Part shown: positions 3,150 through 10,175 of the stretch, piece by piece | Numbering within the stretch: position 1 is the first letter of the stretch | Layout of the letters: each line of letters starts with the position of its first letter | NCBI GenBank assembly: GCA_016789455.1 | Contig: JAEUQU010000002.1 | Location: forward strand, 744,001-808,000 | Length of the DNA stretch: 64,000 bases | Reading direction: 5' to 3' | Origin: Candidatus Saccharibacteria bacterium | GTDB taxonomy: Bacteria; Patescibacteriota; Saccharimonadia; Saccharimonadales; Saccharimonadaceae | Position numbers and translations under genes: made by a program | The notes under the pieces: model-generated | What the model was told of the DNA's origin: nothing | Seen by the model: the letters and a program-made list of their open reading frames with translations, nothing else | The model's database searches: none

Positions 3150-4415
3150 ATGAGTAGCACGTATATCCACATTCTTGGCCGCCAACCAGCCCTCGGCCTG
3201 GCTGAGCTTGAAGCCGCCTACGGATCGGCACAGGTCGCTCCGGCGGGCCGTTCGGCCGCCCTGCTGACGCTGCCCGCAGCACCGGAAGACGAAGTGGAAG
3301 CGCTTGGCTTCCACCGTCTCGGCGGCAGCATCAAGGTCGGCCGGCTGCTGGACCGGACAAGCGCCACGGCCTGGCCGCAGATCATACGCCACCTGGAGCA
3401 GCATCTGGACGCATACCTGGCAGACATACCCGAAGGCAAGCTCAAATTCGGCATCAGCCTTTACGGGCTGCCCGTGGCACCGCGCAAGCTTGGCGCTACC
3501 GCCCTCGACCTCAAGAAACAGATCCGCAGCGGCGGCCGCTCCGTCCGTATCATCCCCAACCAGGACACCGCCCTGTCCAGCGCCCAGGTGCTGCACAACA
3601 ACCTGACCGGACCGCTCGGCTTTGAGCTGCTGGTGGTCAACACCGGCCGGGAGACGCTGATCGGCCGTACGCTTAATTGCCAGTACATCGAAGCCTACGC
3701 CGCCCGTGATTATGGCCGCCCCAAGCGCGATGCCTTCGTCGGCATGCTGCCGCCCAAACTGGCTCAGATTATGATCAACCTGGCCGCCGGCCCCTTGCTG
3801 CGCCAGCGCCAGACCGACGAGCCGGAAGCCGCCCCGCGCCTGCTGGACCCGTTCTGCGGCACCGGCGTCGTCCTGCAGGAAGCGCTGCTGATGGGCCTCT
3901 CGGCCTATGGCACCGATGTGTCCGAGCGCATGATCGACTTCAGCCGGACCAACCTGCAGTGGCTGCCCGAGCAGTTCCCTGCCGCCGGCATCGAGGCCGA
4001 AGACGTGCGTCTGGAACCCGGCGACGCCACTACCCACCAGTGGCAGCCGCCCATCAACTGCGTCGCGGCCGAGACCTACCTGGGCCAGCCGATGCAGCAA
4101 CTGCCCGCCCCGGCCAGGTTCGACCGGATCGTCGCCGACGTCGACGAGCTGCACCGCCGCTTCTTCGTCAATCTGGCCGCCCAGCTGCCCGCCGGCACGC
4201 CGCTGTGCGTGGCCGTCCCCGCCTGGCGCCTTACTCCTGCCGCCAGCGCCAAGGCCCCTGGCTACGAGCAATTCCGGCACCTCCCCGTTATTGACGAACT
4301 GGCCTCACTGGGGTATAATCAAACAGATTTCAGTTACGTGGCACGACGGGACATGCTCTATTTCAGGGAAGATCAGGTTGTTGCCCGGGAATTGTTAGTG
4401 CTCGAAAAACGATAA
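3150..4415 (+). CDS. TRM11-like RNA methyltransferase
   Basis: A 421-aa protein. The first 190 residues resemble a THUMP/NFLD-type RNA-binding half (LKFGISLYGLPV, RSVRIIPNQDTALSSAQVLHN). The second half is a Rossmann methyltransferase with motif I as LLDPFCGTGVVLQEAL and the GTDVSERM acidic loop, as in the Trm11/TrmG10 (UPF0020) enzymes that make N2-methylguanosine in tRNA. The motif IV position reads AAETYLGQP instead of the usual [DN]PPY, so target-base recognition may differ. The C-terminal REDQVVARELLVL is a typical closing strand for the family. rpmA follows 44 nt downstream. Assignment to the family is firm; the target RNA is not known. Confidence 0.8.
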   Translation: MSSTYIHILGRQPALGLAELEAAYGSAQVAPAGRSAALLTLPAAPEDEVEALGFHRLGGSIKVGRLLDRTSATAWPQIIRHLEQHLDAYLADIPEGKLKFGISLYGLPVAPRKLGATALDLKKQIRSGGRSVRIIPNQDTALSSAQVLHNNLTGPLGFELLVVNTGRETLIGRTLNCQYIEAYAARDYGRPKRDAFVGMLPPKLAQIMINLAAGPLLRQRQTDEPEAAPRLLDPFCGTGVVLQEALLMGLSAYGTDVSERMIDFSRTNLQWLPEQFPAAGIEAEDVRLEPGDATTHQWQPPINCVAAETYLGQPMQQLPAPARFDRIVADVDELHRRFFVNLAAQLPAGTPLCVAVPAWRLTPAASAKAPGYEQFRHLPVIDELASLGYNQTDFSYVARRDMLYFREDQVVARELLVLEKR

Positions 4416-6116: not shown

Positions 6117-7400
6117 CTACTGCTGCAGAAGCTGCAGGGCGCGATCCTTCTGCGGGTCGCTGCCGGCTGGCGTATTGGCGTCGGCGCTGACTTTTTCGGC
6201 CGGCTCGATACCTTCGCCGTTGATGTTCTTGCCCTTGGGTGTGTACCACTTGGCGATCGTCACCTTCAGCTGGCCGCCGCCAGGCACATTCTTGATGTCC
6301 TGGACGGAGCCCTTACCGTAGGTCTTCTCGCCGACGAGCTTGGCGACACCGTAGTCATTGAAGGCGCCGGCGATGATCTCGCTGGCACTGGCGCTGCCGC
6401 CGTCGACCAGTACGACCGTCGGGATGCCGGCCAGGATGGCGCGGCCGCCATCGGTGGTAACTTTCTCTATGACACGGCTGCCCTGCCGCTCTTCAACCAC
6501 CACCTTGCCGTCGAGCCAGAGGCCGGCCAGGCCGCGGGCCGCTTCGACATACCCGCCGCCGTTGCCGCGCAGGTCGAGGATGATGCCGCGGACATTCTTG
6601 TCCTTGAATTCGCGGGCGGTCTTTTCGGCCAGGGCGACGGTGTCGGACTCGCTGAAGCGCGAGAGGCGCATGTAACCGATGTTATCGCCGACGATTTCGC
6701 TCTTGAGGCTCGGGTCGACAATGTCGTCGCGGGTGATGGTAAATTCTTTGACATCGCTGCCGCGGACGATGGTCAGCTTGACGCTGGTGCCCTTTACGCC
6801 GCGGATATTGGAAACAGCTTTCTCGACGGACCAGGAGATAGAGTCGTCGCCGTTGACCTTGGCGATGATATCACCAGCCAGCAGGCCTGCTTTTTGGGCC
6901 GGGGCGTTATCGATGGTCGAGATGATGGTGAGCTGCTCGTCCTTCTTGCCCAGCTCGGCACCGATGCCGCTGAACTTGCCTTCCAGGTCACTCAGGAATT
7001 CCTTGGCTTCCTCGTCGGTGAAGTAGACGGTATACGGGTCACCGGTGGCTTCGGTCATGCCCTTCTTGGCGCCCTCAAGCAGTTTGTTGGCGTCGAGCTT
7101 GCCGTCGTAGCGGTTCTTGAGCTGGCCGTACACCTCATTCAGCTCGCCGAATTCCAGCTCTGAAGGCAAGGTGGTGTTCTGCCGGCTGTTGCTGGGGTTG
7201 AGGCTGGCCAGAAGCTGCGGGTTGCGCGAACCCAGCACGAAACCGGCGACGGCGACCAGGATCGATACGAAAATCAGGGTCGGCAGCGTGATGGTGGTCT
7301 GCTTTTTTAGTGGCGTCTGGATGGGCGCTGGGTTGGTAGTGCTACCGGATTGGGTAGGCGACGGTGGGGGGCCGTCTGGATGTCTTTGAGTTCTCGTCAT
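6117..7400 (-). CDS. ctpA: C-terminal processing protease, S41 family
   Basis: A 427-aa membrane-anchored protease. After a proline-rich cytoplasmic tail there is one transmembrane helix (about residues 36-58). A PDZ domain follows (FSGIGAELGKKD to about 225), then the S41 catalytic domain. The catalytic serine is in GGSASASEIIAGA and the lysine in GEKTYGKGSVQ. The enzyme would act outside the membrane, trimming or degrading envelope proteins. The neighbouring upstream genes are envelope hydrolases, which fits a role in controlling wall enzymes, though that link is inferred. Confidence 0.92.
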   Translation of the reverse strand: MTRTQRHPDGPPPSPTQSGSTTNPAPIQTPLKKQTTITLPTLIFVSILVAVAGFVLGSRNPQLLASLNPSNSRQNTTLPSELEFGELNEVYGQLKNRYDGKLDANKLLEGAKKGMTEATGDPYTVYFTDEEAKEFLSDLEGKFSGIGAELGKKDEQLTIISTIDNAPAQKAGLLAGDIIAKVNGDDSISWSVEKAVSNIRGVKGTSVKLTIVRGSDVKEFTITRDDIVDPSLKSEIVGDNIGYMRLSRFSESDTVALAEKTAREFKDKNVRGIILDLRGNGGGYVEAARGLAGLWLDGKVVVEERQGSRVIEKVTTDGGRAILAGIPTVVLVDGGSASASEIIAGAFNDYGVAKLVGEKTYGKGSVQDIKNVPGGGQLKVTIAKWYTPKGKNINGEGIEPAEKVSADANTPAGSDPQKDRALQLLQQ

Positions 7401-7479
7401 ATATCCCGCTTATGGTAACAAATTTGGCGGCGTTTGGAAATTGAGCGGGGGTTCAGGTTTATCTCAGTCGGTGGTTATT

Positions 7480-7595
7480 GGAAAATATTTCCCTTCATTC
7501 CAAAAAGCTCTCTCAGCGACGATGATGGGGGTACGCTTCGCTAGCAAATCCGTGCTAGACGCGTTTACATTTTGGAATGAAGGGAAATATTTTCC
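7480..7595 (+). ncRNA. structured element E1: long outer stem with conserved three-way-junction core
   Basis: The outer arms 7480-7505 and 7570-7595 are perfectly complementary over 26 bp. Inside lie P2 (7507-7512 with 7527-7532, including U-G pairs if transcribed on the plus strand) and P3, a nested hairpin: ACGC (7533-7536) with GCGT (7561-7564), and CTAGC (7541-7545) with GCTAG (7554-7558). The 44-bp core 7530-7573 recurs, inverted, at 7714-7757 with one difference. The outer stem sequence is unrelated to that of the second copy. RNA is favoured over DNA by the wobble pattern, but transcription is not shown. Confidence 0.6.
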
Positions 7596-7690
7596 TCCGC
7601 AGCCGGTGGGTAAAAGTGAGGGTCGCTCAATTGCCAAACTTTGACAAATGCGTTGCCGGCCGCTTCCGTCACCCTGGCACAGACGTTGGT

Positions 7691-7808
7691 GGGGATTGTT
7701 TTAGTCATTTTGTAAAATGTAAACGCGCCTAGCACGGATTTGCTAGCGAAGCGTACCTCCCCCGCTGACCATGAGGAGGCTTTTTACAAAAAGACTAAAA
7801 CAACCCCC
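7691..7808 (-). ncRNA. structured element E2: second copy with a different outer stem
   Basis: On the minus strand the 5' arm (7808 down to 7782) pairs with the 3' arm (7717 down to 7691) at 25 of 27 positions identical to a perfect complement; one exception is a G-U pair. P2 is 7780-7775 with 7760-7755, where a T-A pair replaces a C-G pair of E1. P3 is identical to E1 in both stems and in the TTCG and AAATCCGT loops. The element starts about 10 nt after the stop codon of the CHAP hydrolase gene at 7819, so it may also serve as the 3' end of that mRNA. Confidence 0.6.
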
Positions 7809-7818
7809 GGCGCACCGA

Positions 7819-8994
7819 CTAAAAATAGATGAACGTAAGATTGCCGGGCGAAATGATGCGTTCAGTGTAGGTGCCATTGACGAAGTAATTGAACTCCGAA
7901 ATACGGATTTTACCCCCATCCAGCACTTCTTCAACATACATAGCATGCCCATACGGCCCAATCATCGCGATCGCCACCACTCCCTTCCGCGGCTCAGTGC
8001 CTGTAGAGATACCGTCATCACGGGCACTGGTCGGCCACTGGTTGGCATTTCCCCGCCCGCCCCAGTACGGCATGCGCTTGCCTGATTGATGGACCTTCCA
8101 AGCGGTATAACTGACGCATTCGCGGTTATACATGCCCCAATCGTCCACCAGACTGTCCTGCGGAGCATCGGCCCAATGCGCCGGATAACCACCCTTGGCC
8201 GGATCACCCTCGATCAGTTTGCCGCCACTAAAAGTGGCTTGGTTGGCGCTGAGCTGTTGGGCGCGCATCTCGGCGATATTGCGGTTGCGCTCGGCGATAA
8301 GCTGGGTGTACATCTCCTGCTGGCCGCGGGTCTGGATGAGCAGGTCCTCCTGCTCCTTGCGCTTGACCTCAAGCGTGGTGCGCATGGCCTTGCCGTCACG
8401 CAGCAACCGGGCCACCTCGTCCCGTTGGGCCTCTACCTGCTTCTGGGCGCGGGTCAGACGGGTCAGGTCGCGCTGCAGCTGGCTGCGTAGCCGGTCGCGG
8501 TACTCAAAGCGGTCAACATAAGCGCTCAGGTTCTGACTGGAGGCCAGGAGCTCCAACGGTGTCACATCCCCGTCGACATAGTTGGCGCGCAGCACACTGC
8601 CCACCTGGCGGCTCTTGGCGGCCACATCGGCCTCGCGGAACTCGAGCTCGCTGGTCAGAGCGTCGAACTGAGCCTCATTAAGGGCGATCTGTGACTGGAC
8701 GGCGGCAAGCTGGGCATTGCTATCGATGAGGGCTGTCTGCAGTGAGTTGGCGTACTCGCCAAGGCGGACCTGGGCCTGCTCGTAGCTTTTTATCTCGCTT
8801 TCCACGGATTCTACCTGCGTGTTGTAATCAAGCGCCAGTACCGGGGCGATCGGCGTCAGTGCCATCAGGGCGATGAGGAGGAATTTGACCAGGCGGGAAC
8901 GGCCATGGGCATCGCGGCTGGCAAGGATATGAGCCACCCTGCCCTGGCGGGCTGACCGATCTGTCTTGCTGGTGTTTGTGTCCTGGGGAGGCAT
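7819..8994 (-). CDS. secreted coiled-coil CHAP peptidoglycan hydrolase (PcsB-like), copy 1
   Basis: A 391-aa protein with a long basic N-region, a signal or anchor helix (about residues 36-54), a coiled coil (about 60-245) and a C-terminal CHAP domain. The catalytic cysteine is in NRECVSYTAW and the histidine in GHAMYVE. This layout matches PcsB and its relatives, whose CHAP domain cleaves peptidoglycan only when the coiled coil is released by the FtsEX complex. A paralogue, ftsX and ftsE lie directly upstream on the same strand, which supports that mechanism. The mature enzyme would act in the wall at division sites. Confidence 0.85.
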   Translation of the reverse strand: MPPQDTNTSKTDRSARQGRVAHILASRDAHGRSRLVKFLLIALMALTPIAPVLALDYNTQVESVESEIKSYEQAQVRLGEYANSLQTALIDSNAQLAAVQSQIALNEAQFDALTSELEFREADVAAKSRQVGSVLRANYVDGDVTPLELLASSQNLSAYVDRFEYRDRLRSQLQRDLTRLTRAQKQVEAQRDEVARLLRDGKAMRTTLEVKRKEQEDLLIQTRGQQEMYTQLIAERNRNIAEMRAQQLSANQATFSGGKLIEGDPAKGGYPAHWADAPQDSLVDDWGMYNRECVSYTAWKVHQSGKRMPYWGGRGNANQWPTSARDDGISTGTEPRKGVVAIAMIGPYGHAMYVEEVLDGGKIRISEFNYFVNGTYTERIISPGNLTFIYF

Positions 8995-9065
8995 TTTTGT
9001 TTTTAAAGCTTATTAGTATAGATTATATCATAAAGCTAATGTTTTTACAATGTCTCGCGGAAGGG

Positions 9066-10175
9066 CTAGAAGTAAATGTACGTCAGGCCACTGCTGCTGA
9101 TGACCATTTCGGAGTAATGACCCTGCCAGTCATAGTTGAACTGGCTGACGTGGATCATACCATTCGGCAACACCCGCTCTACCCACATGGCGTGGCCATA
9201 GTAACCGGCCATAGAAATAGCGACGGAGCCAGCGCGAGGCGTAGAGCCAGTCGGGATGCCATCGGCGCGGGCGCTGGACGGCCATTCGTTAGCATTACCC
9301 CGTCCACCCCAGTAGGGCATGCGGCCGGTCTTCTGATGGACCTTCCAGGCGGTATAGCTGACGCATTCGCGGTTGTACATGCCCCACGGGTCAACTAAAG
9401 CATCTTTGGGTGCAGCCGCCAGATAGGACGGATAGCCGCCTTTACCTGGGTCGCCAGCTACGACATTGGCGCCTCCGCTCAGGGCGCGGTTGGCGGCCAC
9501 CTGGGCAGCCTGCAGACCGGTGATCTGTTCACGCTTATCGGCAATCTGCTTCTGATACTCAGCCTCCTGGCCACGGGTTTGGCTGAGCAGCTGGGCCTGA
9601 GCGGCCTGCTGGTTGGCAATCTGGCCGCGCAGCGTCTCGTCGTCCTTGATAAGTTGCTCGACCTTCTTTTTCTGCTCTTCAAGCTGGGCCTTCAGTTCGC
9701 GGATTTGCTTCATGGCCTGCTGGACGCGGTCACGCATCTTATTGCGGTATTCTTCTTTATCGATGAATTCGGAAATGCTCTTGCTGGAAGCGACCTTCTC
9801 GAGGTCGGTGACGTCGCTGTCGACGTACATCGACTTGAGGTTCTGGCCCAGAATTTCGGTGCGCTTGATAATGTCGGCCTGGGCCTGCTCGATATTGCGG
9901 TTCAGCTCATCACGCTTCTGCTGGTTGGCGACGATGCGCCCCTGCAGGTCGGCGATCTGGGCATTCAGGCGGTCGATGGCTTCCTGGAGGCTGCTGGCGC
10001 GGGCAATGGTCTCCTGCAGCGGCCCGTCCAGCTGGTTGATCTCGCCTTGCAGCTGGTTGATTTCGGCCTGGAAATCAATGGCATTCACCGGCAACGGCGC
10101 ACAAGCAATAAGCATGGCCATGGCAGCCAGGCCAAACTTTTGTACATGCTGTGACGGATTATTGCGACGTTTCAA
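9066..10175 (-). CDS. secreted coiled-coil CHAP peptidoglycan hydrolase (PcsB-like), copy 2
   Basis: A 369-aa paralogue of the preceding protein with the same order: signal peptide (basic KRR, hydrophobic core, cut near PVNA), coiled coil (about residues 33-250) and CHAP domain. Catalytic motifs are NRECVSYTAW and GHAMWVER. The start is a TTG at 10175; the next in-frame ATG would remove the positive N-region of the signal peptide, so TTG is preferred. The CHAP domains of the two copies are close while the coiled coils differ, suggesting different regulation or partners. Confidence 0.85.
   Translation of the reverse strand: MKRRNNPSQHVQKFGLAAMAMLIACAPLPVNAIDFQAEINQLQGEINQLDGPLQETIARASSLQEAIDRLNAQIADLQGRIVANQQKRDELNRNIEQAQADIIKRTEILGQNLKSMYVDSDVTDLEKVASSKSISEFIDKEEYRNKMRDRVQQAMKQIRELKAQLEEQKKKVEQLIKDDETLRGQIANQQAAQAQLLSQTRGQEAEYQKQIADKREQITGLQAAQVAANRALSGGANVVAGDPGKGGYPSYLAAAPKDALVDPWGMYNRECVSYTAWKVHQKTGRMPYWGGRGNANEWPSSARADGIPTGSTPRAGSVAISMAGYYGHAMWVERVLPNGMIHVSQFNYDWQGHYSEMVISSSGLTYIYF

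Follow-up and report, generated by a model that had tools for sequence, protein, structure and literature searches.

Several kinds of small hairpin-forming repeats resemble the elements reported here in part. REPINs, the REP doublets associated with RAYT, are likewise short dispersed extragenic palindromes that form inverted doublets, carry compensatory changes and are foldable in single-stranded DNA or mRNA; their outer ends are conserved and their inner spacer varies (PMC3116915), whereas our elements conserve the core and vary in the outer stem. Rickettsia palindromic elements (RPEs; reviewed in PMC10969869) are similar in being palindromic, in forming multiple families, and in occurring in small-genome bacteria; they are also found in frame within coding genes, as are, among our elements, only copies of the FHI family described below. 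Double-hairpin and repetitive hairpin elements of mitochondrial DNA (e.g. PMC2800124) are also tiny, dispersed, intergenic multi-hairpin repeats. Integron attC sites share with our elements a position 3' of genes in fixed orientation and a structured site of variable sequence that folds preferentially on one strand; the outer R boxes of attC are conserved and the site depends on IntI, whereas our elements have free outer arms and housekeeping neighbours. To our knowledge, RPE copies within one family are alike over their whole length, in contrast to the locus-specific outer stem (P1) seen here, and we know of no long locus-specific enclosing stem in the mitochondrial double-hairpin elements. 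Finally, template switching is documented as generating hairpins, restoring their pairing and inverting them, with inversion and one-step re-pairing of arms as its footprints (PMC8794818); such quasipalindrome/template-switch events make and re-perfect long hairpins and invert loops, which fits the P1 turnover described below, but this is a mutational mechanism rather than an element family, and it leaves a conserved core and its dispersal unexplained.

The locus studied here lies in a 64-kb stretch of DNA (the window) and contains two elements, A and B, as a pair between two co-directional genes (Table 1), with B sense and A antisense to its neighbours. A sequence-only reading had proposed two inverted elements with a 44-bp core and unrelated, self-pairing outer stems, and their coordinates, arms and folds were all reproduced; the size of about 117 nt given there corresponds to 116 and 118 nt. 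The two inverted cores (44 nt each) differ by a single substitution. P1 of A (26 bp) and P1 of B (27 bp) are unrelated in sequence and each is self-pairing, with 25/27 pairs plus one G.T and one mismatch in B. P2 differs between A and B by pair-preserving changes (one C-G to T-A and two C-G to U-G), just as had been described. The gap between the P1 5' arm and the core is equal in both copies and measures 24 nt, not the 35 nt stated earlier. Both elements fold as a three-way junction (z-scores of -7.4 to -8.9 against shuffles), the 42-nt core pattern has 0.00 expected occurrences in shuffled sequence, and the runner-up perfect inverted repeat in the window has arms of only 15 bp. P1 of B starts 10 nt past the stop codon of the CHAP gene. 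We note that positions 7819-10175 of the window hold two coiled-coil/CHAP hydrolase genes that are adjacent, co-directional paralogues.

Table 1. Elements A and B, their parts and neighbouring genes, and the flank motif (window positions unless a contig is named)
Feature	Positions	Strand	Remarks
Element A	7480..7595	+	116 nt, own orientation +; covariance-model match 118.7 bits
A P1 5' arm	7480..7505	+	26 nt; no kinship to B/C/D except inner 6-8 nt
A P2 hairpin	7507..7532	+	GCTCTCTC...GGGGGT
A P3 hairpin	7533..7564	+	ACGC-TTCG-CTAGCA...TGCTAG-AC-GCGT
A conserved core	7530..7573	+	44 nt
A P1 3' arm	7570..7595	+	26/26 paired with 5' arm
A-B spacer	7596..7690	.	95 nt
Element B	7691..7808	-	118 nt, own orientation -; sense to CHAP gene
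B P1 5' arm (own orientation)	7782..7808	-	
B P2 hairpin	7755..7780	-	GCCTCC...GGAGGT
B P3 hairpin	7723..7754	-	
B conserved core	7714..7757	-	44 nt
B P1 3' arm	7691..7717	-	
ctpA-like S41 peptidase gene	6117..7400	-	downstream neighbour of A/B
Coiled-coil/CHAP hydrolase gene	7819..8994	-	upstream neighbour of A/B
Flank motif AGTCGGTG	7466..7473	+	6 nt outside A P1
Flank motif AGTCGGTG	7813..7820	-	4 nt outside B P1; overlaps CHAP stop codon
Flank motif AGTCGGTG near E4	L116:10118-10137		E4 = element of E family

The whole source genome (G000; 1.44 Mb in 2 contigs) was searched for the A/B core and contains exactly four copies, forming two convergent pairs, A/B and C/D. C and D are 93 nt apart between a gene for a 506-aa protein and a tRNA-Ala gene, likewise co-directional, with C sense and D antisense to its neighbours. 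Core identity to A and B is 81-90%; the P1 stems of C and D, 28 and 27 bp long, show no relationship either to one another or to those of the first pair. P3, which had been called invariant, has a G.G mismatch in both C and D. Compared globally with A matched to C and B to D, the A-B and C-D spacers are weakly similar (p=0.006). In the only congener (G001), both the CHAP-ctpA junction and the junction between the 506-aa gene and tRNA-Ala are about 45 nt long and empty. A covariance model of the four copies found nothing convincing among 393 genomes of the order or 394 of the family, some of which may be incomplete assemblies, and scans of viral, plasmid, phage and GTDB sequences gave no convincing match to the core.

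Several candidate readings of the core were rejected. A plasmid or phage origin finds no DNA match, and no viral contig carries the core patterns; an 18-nt match in a Bdellovibrionota contig (L048) is without structure and attributed to chance, and a weak R1 match in G532 (22 bits) is without P3. Phase-variable inversion of A-B would pair the 5' arm of A with the 3' arm of B, breaking both P1 stems. One frame of the core (window 7533-7577; L005:3370-3410 and 3550-3600) reads VRFASK(S/L)V(L/V)(D/G)AFTFW, and a coding reading (VRFASKLVVGAFTFW) makes all five C/D core differences synonymous; the flanks of the core (14 and 13 nt) lack synonymous change, the genome contains no parent gene, phages gave no match, and this reading was judged coincidental.

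With only four copies in the A/B core family, most of the evidence below comes from sister families of like architecture, and we infer that these share one mechanism with it. Wide distribution is a feature of the sister families (E and FHI); the exact core stays at four copies in one genome. In a 1.26-Mb sample of G000, nearly all inverted repeats with long arms and long loops hold a branched inner module. The plan common to the families is a conserved central module (P2, P3 and the junction, with two or three inner hairpins in all) enclosed in a long P1 of 23-31 bp that is locus-specific yet paired. The E family has 9 copies in G000, laid out as [P1]-CACTTTTT-[P2, 14 bp, tip CC-ACT-GG]-GCGTTAGGC-[P3 TGAAATC..GATTTCA]-CATACCCC-[P1']. 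FHI elements have the layout AAAGCGAAGTGCAGCC-[variable P2]-GCGCGAAACG enclosed by unrelated P1 stems, and element J is a lone additional example of the class.

Of the 394 family genomes, 26, from 12 genera, match the E model, and many of these hold multiple copies (counts per genome are lower bounds, as the best 8 candidates were scored in each); abutting convergent pairs recur in other genera (G297, G421). FHI elements lie between ftsA and ftsZ in G000 (F) and in G001 (H), which has one further site, and no FHI element was found in the ftsA-ftsZ gap of the remaining genomes checked; besides G001, the genera g2 and g35 also carry the FHI motif. Copies are scattered, patchy between species and often located just behind a stop codon; for E1 and E3, the orthologous tsf and rplJ sites of G001 are empty. 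The copies of core 1 (the A/B core) and of E that we examined are intergenic, and insertion in coding genes is seen in FHI only: FHI copies of g2 lie inside ORFs for valyl-tRNA synthetase (ValRS), exonuclease I and a gyrA-like protein, and PDB 1gax is about 30 residues shorter than the g2 ValRS at the FHI copy.

Relative to PDB 1gax, the ValRS ORF (L245:686-3028) has a second low-complexity insertion of about 38 residues (SRLAPSRPSLRGSVAQSAPLRSR), possibly a further palindromic element lying within a coding region. On the reverse strand of the window core (7746-7757), GCGAAGCGTACC precedes P2, and FHI has GCGAAGTGCAGCC before P2, so that the two families are possibly distant relatives, judging from these motifs. 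A palindromic region downstream of ftsZ (L064:8205-8370), in which ATTTCATTAAATGTT is repeated and part of which recurs at two more places nearby, is possibly another palindromic repeat. Several E elements of G000 (L164:15421-17572, L160:2057-4861) surround genes for type IV pilin-like and secreted proteins, besides those at housekeeping genes. At L055:12850-13054, a tRNA-like sequence has a second, inverted copy of its 3' part, the two forming 26-bp perfect arms on either side of a strong terminator hairpin. A, B and E4, which belong to two different families, have the motif AGTCGGTG pointing towards the element at 4-6 nt from P1 (GTCGGTG is found at 3/30 element ends versus 0.07 expected, a post hoc observation), and this may possibly reflect an insertion preference.

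The elements were not assigned to REPINs or RPEs because the defining features of REPINs were tested and not found: inverted pairs are present and their outer arms are unrelated. At the hairpin foot, the place of the GTAG/CGTC-type tag of REPs, GGAGGT stands before P3 in B, C and D and GGGGGT in A. No Y1/RAYT transposase (PF01797) was matched in G000 (controls were positive), and the copy number is in single digits per family. The in-frame coding insertion typical of RPEs is seen for FHI, and was not seen for core 1 or E. For attC, the boxes RYYYAAC/GTTRRRY are absent from the ends; GCGTTNGGC is internal, with N mostly C, T or G outside G000, and the resemblance to attC (GTTAGGC in the E core) finds no support outside G000. 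No Rfam family matched at gathering score; permissive scans gave only matches far below it, none of them convincing, and those to MIR2646 and other plant miRNAs reflected nothing but long pairing. The proposal, made from the sequence, of a structured nucleic acid with variable P1, conserved centre and no Rfam class is supported. The mark of intrinsic terminators, a G+C-rich stem followed by a U-tract, was not found for the elements in scans or in their flanks.

Covariation in the E family is overwhelming. Across 30 E elements from other genera, in an alignment fitted to the covariance model, 91.6% of cells are paired compared to 57.1% after shuffling, both sides have changed in 49/53 pairs, and the covariation score is 0.84 as against 0.19 for shuffled and <=0.14 for slid partners. 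A plain MAFFT alignment of 39 E elements gives 23/27 pairs in the inner helices (0.54 vs 0.17). Loops are strictly conserved while stems covary. The sequence-only reading had named, in advance, identical outer arms or lack of covariation in further copies as results that would tell against it; further copies exist, their outer arms are non-identical, and the sister E family covaries strongly.

Two sites hold orthologous elements, identified via both neighbours or via rplU itself: the site behind rplU, in three species of g8 and one of g70, and the parB/lepB site, in three species of g8. Core identity is 68-80%. The two closest pairs retain a relationship over the outer 20 nt of P1 (p <= 0.005) that the more distant pairs lack, with 22-23 of 27-28 P1 pairs still Watson-Crick. 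At parB/lepB the core has opposite orientations in different species, as it has in F and H at ftsA-ftsZ. These sites look like descent with P1 rewritten, and not only like fresh insertion. G.T makes up only 2/468 P1 pairs (17 elements), a near-absence that fits arms being copied and not drifting through G-U. The inner 4-8 bp of P1 are the sole part common to copies. An origin of P1 as a copy of other genomic sequence was rejected, as its arms have no long match elsewhere in 1.26 Mb of the genome. Copying at the DNA level is favoured because core inversion and arm re-pairing are the documented footprints of template switching, and from this pattern we infer that template switching rewrites P1.

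Many E copies begin close to a stop codon (about 15 nt or less), predominantly in sense orientation: among E copies with only one stop within 45 nt (ORFs called by a simple rule, table count), 16 are sense and 3 antisense. Where convergent pairs abut, each of the two elements is often sense to its respective gene (e.g. L210). P1 mismatches, counted over the outer 18 bp of 40 E elements, are asymmetric: on the element strand there are 39 A.C, 16 T.C/C.T and 4 C.C as against 7 G.T and 2 G.A (A.C vs G.T, p = 2e-6), and on the opposite strand these read G.T 39, G.A 16 and G.G 4 vs A.C 7, i.e. the mildest kinds. The lean is towards the antisense strand in 21 elements and the other way in 4; P2 and P3 show no strand bias of mismatches. 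Two causes would fit this spectrum: maintained foldability of the antisense strand, or preferential loss of G from the sense strand.

The explanation we prefer, to which we give an even chance, is a dispersed palindromic element whose core is spread by a trans-acting factor and whose P1 is rewritten by template switching; as part of it, A and B would be one unit, a convergent pair, of a non-autonomous element. The elements do behave like mobile repeats: they are dispersed, multi-copy and patchy, with congener sites empty and near-identical cores at unrelated loci. The earlier statement that they are unlike a transposon agrees with the outer ends, which differ between copies, and is not supported by dispersal, copy number, patchiness and absence from the congener sites checked. 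No target-site duplication was found (flanking direct repeats are no longer than random), and no terminal inverted repeats common to copies, the mark of MITEs and DNA transposons, were seen. In the preferred mechanism, a putative trans-acting factor would recognise and spread the central module; template switching between the two arms of P1, a DNA-level process also able to flip the core, would rewrite and re-pair that stem; P1 would be kept because one strand must fold; and, at a gene end, the hairpin is probably an incidental 3'-end barrier or insulator. The elements are best summarised as dispersed REPIN/RPE-like palindromes of inverted plan.

The strand asymmetry of P1 is not accounted for by template switching alone, and same-site retention across genera (rplU end, g8 and g70) is a better fit to host function than to selfish DNA. 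Another reading, which we would advance only tentatively, is a new class of strand-specific structured nucleic acid, comprising several families built alike and retained throughout a bacterial family where housekeeping genes end (3'), in which the core would be read by a putative machine and an obligatory outer helix of about 28 bp would be selected for pairing on one strand, its sequence being free.

It is rather unlikely, in our judgement, that the elements are cis-acting RNA at mRNA 3' ends, cotranscribed with the upstream gene and acting in termination, stabilisation or processing, with P1 as a long clamp selected for pairing only. The closeness to stop codons, the excess of sense copies, the convergent pairs and the strictly conserved loops among covarying stems would all suit such an RNA. 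The sequence-only reading had considered a structured nucleic acid, most likely RNA. The mismatches argue against an RNA helix on the sense strand, which should tolerate G.U and predicts the opposite spectrum. In addition, no U-tract follows P1, terminator scans gave about chance numbers, A and D are antisense to their neighbours, and FHI copies lie inside coding genes.

The same mismatches would favour the strand antisense to the adjacent gene as the functional molecule, either folded single-stranded DNA (an attC-like, strand-specific hairpin) or antisense RNA, which we regard as improbable: no integrase or other partner was identified, the outer stem lacks the conservation of attC outer boxes, in most copies GCGTTNGGC carries C, T or G at the position that must be a purine in attC, the bias does not extend to P2 and P3, and strand-biased G loss on the sense strand would give an equal spectrum. 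Ordinary long intrinsic terminators with loops invaded by a repeat, P1 being the old terminator stem, are very improbable, since uninterrupted hairpins in 464 kb of the genome have arms of at most 20 bp compared to 23-31 bp for P1, P1 is without T-tracts and virtually all long-arm, long-loop inverted repeats of the 1.26-Mb sample hold one of the cores, even though the tsf 3' end of the congener has an ordinary hairpin (TATATATTTAAAAGAAGCC-TGAT-GGCTTCTTTTAAATATATA) where G000 has E1.

The repeated DNA hairpins described here, found in at least 12 related genera, are apparently an undescribed group. If the preferred explanation is true, a whole bacterial family holds undescribed dispersed hairpins with conserved and variable parts swapped relative to REPINs. 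Whether such stems change by G-U drift or by copying between arms is an open question in RNA evolution, and the orthologous copies are a natural experiment on it, with long perfect hairpins staying paired while their sequence turns over. The strand-biased mismatches permit a direct test of whether these palindromes act as RNA or as single-stranded DNA.
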